From Halorubrum sp. CBA1229 (GTDB lineage Archaea > Halobacteriota > Halobacteria > Halobacteriales > Haloferacaceae), in the NCBI RefSeq assembly GCF_003721435.2, contig NZ_CP054585.1, positions 1,240,001 through 1,304,000 of the forward strand: DNA of 64,000 nucleotides. Direction: 5' to 3'. A model generated the notes under the pieces. That model saw only the letters and a program-made list of their open reading frames with translations. It did no database searches and was not told where the DNA came from. Position 1 is the first letter of the stretch. Every line of letters starts with the position of its first letter. Positions 4,826 to 12,313 of the stretch are shown here, one piece after another. Made by a program: the position numbers and the translations under genes.

Positions 4826-6019
4826 ATGAAGCGGCCGAGGGTCGTGGTCGCGCTCCTCGTCGTCGTCGCGGTCGGACTGGCGCTTTCCGGCGCCTTCTCC
4901 GGGCCGCCCGCGGAGGAGCCGGCGGCGTCGACGGTCCCCGAGGAGTCGCTCATCGCGGTCGAGGGCGACTACCGACTGTGGCCGTATACGAGCCGGAGCA
5001 CGTCGATCGAGGGGCGGACGCTCGCGATCAACGTCGTGTTCCACGCCGACGCGGCGGCGACGCGCGCGGCGATCGAGAGCGGCGCGGCGGCCGACTGGGA
5101 GGAGACCGACGAGACGGAGTCGGCGACGACCGCCGACACGGAACAGGTGCGGGCGTTCGTCGAGCGCGACTGGGACGACGCACGCAGCTCGACGCGGTAC
5201 ACCTACGTGGAGGGGCCCACCGGCGGCGTCTGGCTGACGGAGACGTTCGAGCTCCACGACGGGGCGTACCTCGGCGTGCGCGACCACCTCCGGGCGTACG
5301 AGTCCCCCGGCGGGGCATACACCGCGATACAGGCCCACGAGGAGTACTACGACTGGTTCCGGCTCCGCCACACGGTACCCGGGATCGACGAGCCGGCGGT
5401 CCGGCTGGAGGACGAGTTCATCCGCGGCGGGGTCGACGCCGAGGTCCGCCGCGAGTACCGCGGGATCGAGGGGGGATGGAGCGACGGCTGGATCTCGGTG
5501 ATCGAGCTGGCGTCGCTCGCGACCGTCGGCGGCGTGCTGCTCCGGCGCCGGACCCGGACGGCCGCCGTCGACCTCGCGCGACGGAGCCGCCGGGAGGCGG
5601 CGAGACACGCTGACGCCGCGGTGCTCGGGGCCGCGCTCGCCGCCGTCGTCGTCGGCGTCCGTGCCGCCGGGGTCGGGCTGGAGCTCGCGTACCCGAGCCT
5701 CCCGCCGAAGGCGATCGCCGGCCCGCTGTACCTCGTCCTCGCCGTCGGCCTCCCGGCCCTCGTCGTCTTGCGGGCGCGCGAGTGCGACCCGGCGGCGGCC
5801 GCCCTCGGCGTCGCCGTCGGGCTCGGAGCGGGGTTCGTGGTCGACTTCGCCGCGCTCGGCGTCGCGGTGCCCCCCGACCTCATCGTGCACCGGATCGCGC
5901 TGCTCGCGGCGCTCGGCGTGGTCGCCATCGGGCGCGCGGCGGCCGACCGCCCCGTGCTTGCCGCGGGGGCCCTCGCGTGGGCGATCGGACTGGCGCTCCC
6001 GCTCGCGGACGTGATCTGA
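4826..6019 (+). CDS. Membrane protein: signal anchor, extracellular domain, C-terminal transmembrane helices
   Basis: A 397-residue protein of unknown function. Residues 5-24 form a hydrophobic signal or anchor. Residues about 30-235 form a soluble acidic domain rich in Tyr and Trp (for example YRLWPYTSRS and EEYYDWFRLRHT), probably outside the cell. After a hydrophobic segment near 230-245 and a basic Arg-rich cytosolic loop (RRRTRTAAVDLARRSRREAARH), about five helices follow to the end. The ATG at 4826 follows TTTTGATACTGG (4799-4810), a weak TATA-like box. I do not recognise the family. Confidence 0.75.
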   Translation: MKRPRVVVALLVVVAVGLALSGAFSGPPAEEPAASTVPEESLIAVEGDYRLWPYTSRSTSIEGRTLAINVVFHADAAATRAAIESGAAADWEETDETESATTADTEQVRAFVERDWDDARSSTRYTYVEGPTGGVWLTETFELHDGAYLGVRDHLRAYESPGGAYTAIQAHEEYYDWFRLRHTVPGIDEPAVRLEDEFIRGGVDAEVRREYRGIEGGWSDGWISVIELASLATVGGVLLRRRTRTAAVDLARRSRREAARHADAAVLGAALAAVVVGVRAAGVGLELAYPSLPPKAIAGPLYLVLAVGLPALVVLRARECDPAAAALGVAVGLGAGFVVDFAALGVAVPPDLIVHRIALLAALGVVAIGRAAADRPVLAAGALAWAIGLALPLADVI

Positions 6020-6116: not shown

Positions 6117-8012
6117 ATGAACGGGCAGGTCAGCCGGCGCGAGGCGCTCGCGGGGATCGGTCTGGGGGCCCTGAGCGCCGGCTGTCTCGGTCGGACCCGC
6201 AACATCGCGGGCCGCGACCGGTCGTCGCAGCTCACGCTGCGGATCGTCGCCGCGCCGGCCGACAGGGACCCGAACGCGATCCGGATCGCCCGACACCTCG
6301 CCGAGAATCTGAACGCGGTGGGGATCGACGCCCGGATCAACACCCTGAACCGGACCGACCTCTGGCGGAAGGTGCTCATCAACCAGGACTTCGATATATA
6401 CGTCGGACAGTTCCTGGAGCCGGAGCCGTTCGATCCCGACGCGATGTACGCGTTCACCCACTCGCGGTTCGTCGCCGAGGCGGGCCGGCAGAATCCGTTC
6501 GGCTTCACCGACGTCAACGGCGTGGACGAGCAGCTCGAACGCCAGCGGCGGGCGGAAGGAGAGCGGCCGGAGGTCGTGGCCGAGCTCCAGCGCTCGCTGT
6601 GCGAGCTCCAGCCGTTCACCGTCGTCGCGTTCCCCGACCCGCTCACCGCGGTCCGCGAGGAGCGGTTCGAGGGGTGGACGAACCGACAGCCCCTGTCGGT
6701 CGGCGCGCTGCTGGGCCTCGAGCACGCGGGGACGAGCGACGAGGCGGGAACAGCGAACGGAACGACGGAGGGCGACGCGGGAAGCGGCGAGAACGCCACG
6801 GCCGACGGGGAGACCGCCGACGGCGGCGCCACCCTCCGGCTCGTCACGACGGACGATCAGATCACGGAGAACTGGAACCCGATCGCGGCCGAGTACAGAC
6901 GCGAGGGGACGTTCACGACGCTGCTGTACGACCAGCTCGCGCTGGTGGACGGCGGCGAGGTCGTCCCGTGGCTCGCGGCGGGGTGGGAACGGGTCGACGA
7001 GGGGACGCTCGCGCTCGACCTCCGGGACGCCCGGTGGCACGACGGCGAGCCGGTGACCGCGGGCGACGTGGCGTTCACCTACGAGTTCCTCCGCGACACC
7101 TCGATGGGCTCGCTCGAGGCGGCGGTGCCGACGCCGCGGTTCCGCGGCCGGAGCTCGGTCGTCGAGTCGGCGACGGTCGTCGACGAGGGACGGGTCGAGC
7201 TCGAGATCGGCGACGTGAACGACGCGGTCGCGGTCCGGGCGCTGCAGGTCCCGATCCTCCCGGAACACGTCTGGTCCGAGCGGACCGACGCCGCGACCAT
7301 CGCCGGCTTCGAGTTCGACGTGGAGACGACCGAGGCGGTGGTGTCGACCAACGAGAACCCGGTCGGCAGCGGGCCGATACGGTTCGTCGAGGCGACGGCT
7401 GAGGAGTCGGTCGTCTTCGAGCGCAACCCGGACCACTTCCTCGTCCGCGCGGACGCGACGGACGGGGAGACCGCGGACGGAGAGAGCGACCCCGCGGCGG
7501 GGATCCCGGAGCGGTTCCGCGGGAAGCCGGCCTTCGATCGGCTGCGGATCGAGGTGTCGCCCTCGGACATCGCCGCGGTGGAGGCGGTCAGCGACGGGAT
7601 CGCGGACGCGACCGTTTCGACCCTCGGCCCGGACGCGGTCCCCCGGGTCGGGAGGGAGGCCGACTCGCGGCTCGTGACCGGGCGCTCGGGCGGGTTCTAC
7701 CACGTCGGGTACAACGCGCGGCGGGCGCCCCTGTCGAACCCGCGCTTCCGGGCCGTCCTCGCGTCGCTGATAGACAAGCAGACGCTCGTTCGCGAGGCGT
7801 TCAGCGGGTACGCCGAGCCGGCGACGTCGCCGCTGGCGGCCTCGCCCGAGTGGGTGCCGGACGACCTGCGGTGGGACGACCGGGAGACGGACCCGGTGTA
7901 CCCGTTCGTCGGAGAGGGGGGAACGCTCGACATCGGGCGCGCGAAGGACTTGCTCCGGGAGGCGGGGTATCGCTTCAACGACGCGGGGCACCTGCTCTCT
8001 CGGGGGGGATGA
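6117..8012 (+). CDS. Peptide/solute-binding lipoprotein (SBP family 5) with permuted domain order
   Basis: A 631-residue extracellular binding protein of an ABC-type uptake system. It has a Tat signal (SRREALAG, residues 5-12) and a lipobox ending in Cys21 (LSAGC). Normal family-5 proteins begin with a block such as LRLVTTDDQ...VPWLAAGWE...WHDGEPVTAGDVAFTYEFL. Here that block comes in the middle (about residues 240-330), after a Gly/Thr/Asp-rich linker (about 205-238). The first 200 residues instead match what usually forms the C-terminal end (ENLNAVGIDARINTLN, DFDIYVGQF). The protein stops at the KDLLREAGYRF segment, where the usual C-terminal block would begin. The gene overlaps the next start by ATGA. 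No permease genes are adjacent. Confidence 0.85.
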   Translation: MNGQVSRREALAGIGLGALSAGCLGRTRNIAGRDRSSQLTLRIVAAPADRDPNAIRIARHLAENLNAVGIDARINTLNRTDLWRKVLINQDFDIYVGQFLEPEPFDPDAMYAFTHSRFVAEAGRQNPFGFTDVNGVDEQLERQRRAEGERPEVVAELQRSLCELQPFTVVAFPDPLTAVREERFEGWTNRQPLSVGALLGLEHAGTSDEAGTANGTTEGDAGSGENATADGETADGGATLRLVTTDDQITENWNPIAAEYRREGTFTTLLYDQLALVDGGEVVPWLAAGWERVDEGTLALDLRDARWHDGEPVTAGDVAFTYEFLRDTSMGSLEAAVPTPRFRGRSSVVESATVVDEGRVELEIGDVNDAVAVRALQVPILPEHVWSERTDAATIAGFEFDVETTEAVVSTNENPVGSGPIRFVEATAEESVVFERNPDHFLVRADATDGETADGESDPAAGIPERFRGKPAFDRLRIEVSPSDIAAVEAVSDGIADATVSTLGPDAVPRVGREADSRLVTGRSGGFYHVGYNARRAPLSNPRFRAVLASLIDKQTLVREAFSGYAEPATSPLAASPEWVPDDLRWDDRETDPVYPFVGEGGTLDIGRAKDLLREAGYRFNDAGHLLSRGG

Positions 8013-11378: not shown

Positions 11379-11543
11379 TCATCCGATACTGCGAACGAGG
11401 CCGGCGAGCAGCAGGATCAGGAACAGCGCGAGGAGCAACAGCAGCACCCCGAGCTTCGTCCCGGGCGGAGGCCGGCGAGCGCACGCCCCACCGCCGCGTT
11501 TCGGTGCGGATTCCCGCAGCCGGGTCGGCGAGCTCACGCTCAC
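11379..11543 (-). CDS. 54-residue small membrane protein, GTG start, coupled to the matrix operon
   Basis: The GTG at 11541-11543 overlaps the upstream stop codon (GTGA, stop at 11540-11542). The frame is open for 54 codons to a TGA at 11379-11381. Residues about 1-30 are basic (LRESAPKRRRGACARRPPPGTK). A single transmembrane helix follows (LGVLLLLLALFLILLLAGLV) and then a four-residue tail. Overlapping starts run through this whole operon (see the genes up to 15631), which supports the reading frame. Function unknown; it could be a small accessory of the adjoining signal peptidase. Confidence 0.55.
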   Translation of the reverse strand: MSVSSPTRLRESAPKRGGGACARRPPPGTKLGVLLLLLALFLILLLAGLVRSIG

Positions 11544-12313
11544 ACCCCGGTCGGGGCGGACGCCGCGACGTCCGAACTGGTCGTTTCAGACCCCTTCTCC
11601 GCAGGATCCGGAACGTTCCCGTCGAACGTCGTTTCGTCTCCCGTCGGCGCGGGCTCATCGTTCGTCTTCGGCTCCTCGTCCGGCGCGGGCCCCTCGTCCG
11701 GCGCGGGCTCATCGTTCGTCTTCGGCTCCCCGTCCGGCGCGGGCTCATCGTTCGTCTTCGGCTCCCCGTCCGGCGCGGGCTCCTCGTCCGGTGCCGATTC
11801 GTTCGTCTTCGGCTCCCCGTCCGGCGCGGGCTCCTCGTCCGGTGCCGATTCGTTCTCGGACGGCGCGGGCTCCTCGTCCGGTGCCGATTCGTTCTCGGAC
11901 GGCGCGGGCTCGGTATCCGGAGCCGTGACGTTCTCTGGCGCCGGTTCGGTTCCGTTCTCGGGCAGCGCAGTTTCGTTTTCCGGAGCCGAAACGTTCTCGG
12001 AGCTCGGGGCGGTCGCGTTGCCCGGCGGCACCGAGACGGTCTCGGGAGCCGACGCGTTCGCGTTCACCGATCTCTCCGTCGCGTTGCCCACGGGCGCTGT
12101 CGTGTTCGTCTCGTTCCCAACCGAGAGCGTCGACGTCCCGAGATCGCCGTCCGTCGACGTTTCGATCGGGGCGAACTCCTCGACCGTTTCGAACGTCGTC
12201 GTCACGGTCGCGTTCGACGTGAGCACGGCGAGCGTGAGGCCGCCGCCGAACGCGACCGCCCACACCAGCACCGCGACGGCGACGAGGCCGACGAGGCCGC
12301 GGTTCACGGCCAT
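11540..12313 (-). CDS. Acidic, repeat-rich surface protein with N-terminal membrane anchor
   Basis: A 257-residue protein. Residues 5-30 are a transmembrane anchor. A short conserved part follows (SNATVTTTFETVEEFAPIE). The rest is Asn-, Glu-, Pro- and Thr-rich, with repeats of the type SAPDEEPAPDGEPKTN and DEPAPDGEPKTN over residues about 130-215. Many NxT/NxS sites are present, so it may be N-glycosylated outside the cell. The ATG overlaps the stop of the signal peptidase gene (TGATG). It may be a wall-spanning or matrix spacer protein; function is inferred from position only. Confidence 0.7.
   Translation of the reverse strand: MAVNRGLVGLVAVAVLVWAVAFGGGLTLAVLTSNATVTTTFETVEEFAPIETSTDGDLGTSTLSVGNETNTTAPVGNATERSVNANASAPETVSVPPGNATAPSSENVSAPENETALPENGTEPAPENVTAPDTEPAPSENESAPDEEPAPSENESAPDEEPAPDGEPKTNESAPDEEPAPDGEPKTNDEPAPDGEPKTNDEPAPDEGPAPDEEPKTNDEPAPTGDETTFDGNVPDPAEKGSETTSSDVAASAPTGV

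Follow-up and report, generated by a model that had tools for sequence, protein, structure and literature searches.

The window analyzed here, a 64-kb stretch of the Halorubrum sp. CBA1229 genome, carries on its forward strand a gene for a 631-aa family-5 solute-binding protein (SBP), preceded by a membrane protein gene and followed by a gene for a PAP2_3 membrane phosphatase/phosphotransferase (Table 1). The SBP open reading frame occupies exactly the interval listed, from an ATG start to a single stop codon. Its product contains both a twin-arginine motif and a lipobox cysteine, the two hallmarks by which it is predicted to be a Tat-exported lipoprotein, and R7, R8, G22, and C23 are invariant among the 27 relatives compared. 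The ATG of the PAP2 gene, the only PAP2_3 gene copy in the genome, overlaps the SBP stop codon (ATGA at positions 8009–8012, within the junction GGATGAG). Elsewhere in the window, the reverse strand encodes a secreted-looking protein (11543–12313) with repeated acidic motifs (ESAPDEEPAPSEN, DGEPKTN).

Table 1. Features of the SBP-PAP2 locus and of the related loci discussed in the text.
Feature	Coordinates	Strand	Remarks
Circularly permuted SBP_bac_5 lipoprotein, 631 aa (almost certain)	6117–8012	+	Profiles, rotation scan, AlphaFold models
Signal region and tether, residues 1–34	6117–6218	+	Twin-arginine SRREAL; lipobox LSAGC with Cys23
Moved (front) block, residues about 36–206	6222–6734	+	C-terminal third of standard SBP_5 (DppA 341–507)
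Linker from ancestral C-terminus to ancestral N-terminus, residues 206–237	6732–6827	+	pLDDT <50 over residues 208–235
Rear block, residues about 237–631	6828–8009	+	First two thirds of standard SBP_5 (DppA 1–346)
PAP2_3 membrane phosphatase/phosphotransferase, 279 aa	8009–8848	+	PF14378, 61 bits (cut-off 27)
Membrane protein with an extracellular domain and, toward the C-terminus, about six helices	4826–6019	+	No Pfam match
Orthologous archaeal SBPs, permuted	L189:13827–15386; L190:7139–8707		Two genomes
Orthologous archaeal SBPs, standard	L188:9000–10550; L191:8291–9847; L192:8886–10478		Three genomes
Tandem-duplication loci	L036, L037, L100, L113, L118, L119, L123, L127		

Block order and fold of the 631-aa protein

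The Pfam profile PF00496 (SBP_bac_5) places the protein within family 5 (168.5 bits, cut-off 32.4), with its segments in reversed order: profile positions 1–282 fall on residues 281–622, and positions 293–363 on residues 45–116. Family profiles of the front and rear blocks, each built from 24 relatives and run against the PDB, match separate regions of standard proteins, the front block aligning with DppA 357–487 (1dpp_A) and AppA 368–497 (1xoc_A), and the rear block with 1dpp_A 32–339, which does not overlap the front-block region. In all 30 standard-order SBP_5 controls, which include Escherichia coli DppA, OppA, and GsiB and four proteins of Halorubrum sp. CBA1229, the rear block comes first and the front block second, opposite to the 631-aa protein, the front-block match being weak (<6 bits) in five of the 30. 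The standard segment order of SBP_bac_5 is absent from the protein, which is hence a permuted rather than a canonical member of the family.

Single-sequence pairwise scores of rotated and unrotated forms were too noisy to be decisive, and profiles were therefore used to locate the cut. When the family profile was cut stepwise and each rotation scored on standard proteins, the optimum lay at residues 206–237, with 998 bits summed over nine standard proteins against 853 for the unrotated profile. Rotated at this point, the profile covers DppA 60–515 in one alignment, whereas the unrotated profile gives two separate alignments, of 118 and 39 bits. The unrotated, native order scores highest on five permuted relatives that had been found independently.

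Structure models agree with this arrangement. The AlphaFold model of the whole protein (mean pLDDT 84.6, pTM 0.83) has low confidence only at residues 1–33 and 208–235, where pLDDT is below 50, and at residues 397–399, and order-dependent alignment superposes residues 233–631 on AppA 17–358 (Z 22.0) and residues 238–629 on DppA 1–346. Because the Foldseek and VIA matches to the complete model lay mostly within residues 230–631, the front block (residues 36–206) was folded and searched separately. Its isolated model (pLDDT 71.8) aligns over its full length to DppA 341–507 (Z 9.3, rmsd 6.0, a high value that reflects the front block not being a domain by itself), and its remaining top matches likewise correspond to the last third of SBP_5 proteins. 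Both blocks thus superpose on the two-lobe fold of DppA, jointly covering residues 1–507, and the fold matches listed are cluster C proteins. Among the best 60 matches, there is no solved chain whose best stretch extends across both blocks in the permuted order.

The first-pass annotation had proposed that the block order is reversed through rotation of the standard fold, and not by fusion with a second copy, and that the N-terminal block supplies the part missing at the C-terminus. Profiles, rotation scan, and the two structure models bear out each of these points, as does the topology comparison with DppA; the moved block is real, but its limits, originally set at about residues 25–200, lie at about 36–206, the first 34 residues being signal and tether. 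The protein is almost certainly a circularly permuted family-5 SBP. A C-terminal-like domain added to a truncated SBP, with no rotation, could be suspected from the linker (TSDEAGTANGTTEGDAGSGENATADGETADGG), which is long and disordered in the genus Halorubrum, but across permuted relatives the linker ranges from 1 to 74 residues, with 1–8 aa in many of them, and the two blocks tile DppA once with nothing duplicated, which makes this reading extremely improbable. Duplication or domain fusion is rejected on the block-profile matches and the structural alignments, in which DppA is covered without a duplicate.

The chain of this predicted Tat-exported, lipid-anchored, OppA/DppA-fold protein begins inside lobe II, finishes that lobe together with the last portion of lobe I, and passes through the disordered linker; what is still missing of lobe I follows, and then the initial portion of lobe II, up to just before the loop at which the chain started. 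The order of the segments is shown by sequence and models, and their assignment to lobes follows the known fold of the family. The permuted protein probably still works like a flytrap, closing on a ligand.

Distribution and recurrence of the permuted form

The query is matched over most of its length in each of the 34 further genomes searched from the genus (35 of 35 when the source genome is included), and many families of the order likewise hold matches. Scanning the GTDB genomes gave 312 relatives, the best 80 of which are all haloarchaeal. Among open reading frames containing both blocks, 162 are permuted (redundancy included) and six are standard; the six are controls or other SBPs of Halorubrum sp. 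CBA1229, and none of the loci brought in as relatives contributes a standard-order protein. The permutation is conserved across relatives, rather than an accident of one genome. Halorubrum sp. CBA1229 itself has six SBP_5 genes, four standard and two permuted. In Salinigranum rubrum, a permuted SBP gene upstream of a PAP2 gene is annotated as two coding sequences (L164:4595–5708), perhaps through a frameshift or a split gene.

Permuted family-5 proteins also occur in the Alphaproteobacteria (Ketogulonicigenium, Roseomonas, and Nitratireductor; L160–L162). These share the identical rotation at the identical loop, but they lack a lipobox, are annotated merely as substrate-binding proteins, and are encoded beside two permease genes and ATPase genes in full Dpp/Opp-type ABC operons. 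The first-pass annotation had suggested that the new termini could change ligand closure or coupling to the membrane; since alphaproteobacterial relatives without a lipobox sit in ordinary ABC operons, such an effect does not account for the permutation in general, and the missing lipobox argues against a requirement for tethering. The group of permuted SBP_5 proteins is large, extends across the Halobacteria, and spans two domains of life, concealed by the annotation "substrate-binding protein".

Natural circular permutations of binding proteins have rarely been described, and for family 5 a search of open-licence PMC papers yielded no description of a permuted member. The closest precedent for natural permutation in a tethered lipoprotein is Tp0684 (MglB-2, TpMglB-2) of Treponema pallidum, a cluster B protein that still binds glucose, whose permutation was proposed by its authors to be an adaptation to tethering, and which was presented as the founder of a permuted sub-class, cluster Bc (PMC4990184). 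It differs from the 631-aa protein in having a Type I, cluster B sugar-binding fold and another cut site, and at this level it has no homology to family 5.

In a tree that combined permuted proteins, after rotation, with standard ones, the clade of the 631-aa protein (hereafter the core clade) forms a single branch (100/100), apart from the transporter-linked permuted proteins, and joins further permuted proteins from haloarchaea and Alphaproteobacteria at 87/84. Two further permuted proteins (L148 and L149) are nested among standard orthologues of their own family (100/98), a placement on which one common origin for every permuted form was rejected. We take this family to be Archaeoglobi by sequence. 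For the permuted rows without this pair, a single clade was likewise rejected by an AU test (p 0.0005), on a group defined after inspection of a tree with long branches. The placements suggest that permutation at the same loop arose more than once. A permuted SBP with an early end and without the usual AGY tail (L156:5657–7300) groups with a standard SBP of Halorubrum sp. CBA1229 (L133) at 100/99, and is perhaps a further independent permutation.

In the archaeal family of L148 and L149 the same lipoprotein SBP orthologue is permuted in two genomes and standard in three (Table 1). Set against the standard genes of two congeneric genomes, the permuted genes are about 80% identical at the DNA level, aligning as two crossed pieces. 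In the standard orthologue AGYSE is followed by DNKLKLELWW; in the permuted protein AGYSE is the C-terminus, and the mature domain starts with KKLKIELWW after a similar lipoprotein signal. An assembly error is unlikely, because the two permuted genes come from separate assemblies and are 83% identical over the gene. These orthologues capture a recent natural permutation, and having standard and permuted forms at about 80% DNA identity makes the cost and the origin of permutation directly testable.

Pairing with a PAP2 gene and candidate role

Across the core clade, a PAP2 gene lies at most 900 nt downstream of the SBP gene on the same strand in 86 of 91 loci, from many families; in two more, the PAP2 gene stands between two SBP copies. 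The SBP stop and PAP2 start codons overlap in 74 of the 93 pairs measured. An adjacent downstream PAP2 gene is missing from five of the 91 loci, two of which have one upstream. Across about 100 neighbor proteins, the catalytic PAP2 motifs GPRN, FPSLHTS, and GIHWxxDV are conserved at 95% or more. The SBP-PAP2 pair is often preceded by a membrane protein of the type found at 4826–6019, with 52 occurrences in about 100 loci. Tandem duplication of the SBP or of the pair (SBP-PAP2-SBP, SBP-PAP2-SBP-PAP2) is seen in the Natrialbaceae and other groups (Table 1).

What this pairing shows is a common process, and not physical contact. The partner of the core-clade SBP would most likely be the product of the overlapping downstream gene, the membrane PAP2 enzyme, and not an ABC importer: the lipoprotein would capture or sense an extracellular ligand and either hand it on to the PAP2 active site, which normally faces outward, or regulate that site. 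Such ligand delivery or regulation is proposed from the PAP2 pairing and from the analogy to LpqW considered below, and we give this mechanism about an even chance of being correct.

An ordinary importer subunit for an ABC permease encoded in trans, beside a PAP2 gene that is a housekeeping operon neighbor, would be an alternative role. The permuted fold is evidently capable of serving import, given that divergent permuted SBPs belong to permease-permease-ATPase operons and hence to complete ABC importers, and the genome holds four standard SBP_5 proteins and one permuted SBP_5 besides the 631-aa protein. In this locus and in the core loci, the SBP gene is nevertheless not encoded with the permease and ATPase genes that accompany SBPs of ABC importers. 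Motif patterns, used here instead of profiles, detected no ABC ATPase signature within the 64-kb window and none near the core loci except for a few distant strays. Together with PAP2 adjacency over many families, and with the separation of the core clade from the transporter-linked proteins as one branch, this makes the importer role unlikely.

The core clade shares its fold with OppA, DppA, AppA, and NikA (cluster C), whose profile extends over both of its blocks, and it resembles them in export; it departs from them in its rotated blocks, in the lack of an ABC operon, and in the loss of a conserved peptide-anchoring aspartate. At the position where OppA and DppA anchor the amino group of the peptide with an aspartate, 2 of 18 core-clade proteins have this residue, in an alignment that is uncertain at a gap. 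A peptide ligand with a free amine is therefore less likely.

The nearest functional analogue of the 631-aa protein is LpqW (PDB 2grv), an SBP_5-fold lipoprotein that is likewise an orphan without an ABC operon; it is tied to envelope lipid synthesis rather than to import, and regulates the synthesis of PIM and LAM in mycobacteria (PMC3229680, PMC12421883). LpqW differs in having the PIM/LAM pathway as its partner and in its standard block order, the rear block matching residues 25–387 and the front block residues 386–598. Its regulatory role in that synthesis, the fact that both blocks have it among their fold matches, and the lost aspartate would also suit a lipoprotein that no longer binds a solute and instead assists the PAP2 enzyme, or the assembly of lipid-linked glycans, in a structural or regulatory capacity. 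The numerous conserved residues kept in the front and rear blocks are more than a scaffold may need, and we consider such an accessory rather improbable.

The account as a whole, a permuted SBP in partnership with a PAP2 enzyme, is in our judgment as apt to hold as to fail. A broader and more tentative extension, which we rate somewhat below even, is that nearly all haloarchaea possess a two-gene envelope system not described before. Its tethered, permuted SBP would capture a ligand, lipid-linked or amphipathic, on behalf of a PAP2 enzyme that faces outward, in a use of the OppA fold outside transport; and permutation at the loop opened here would have happened several times, making it a recurrent site. 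The pairing with PAP2 points to haloarchaeal envelopes as a place where a very common fold serves a purpose other than transport.
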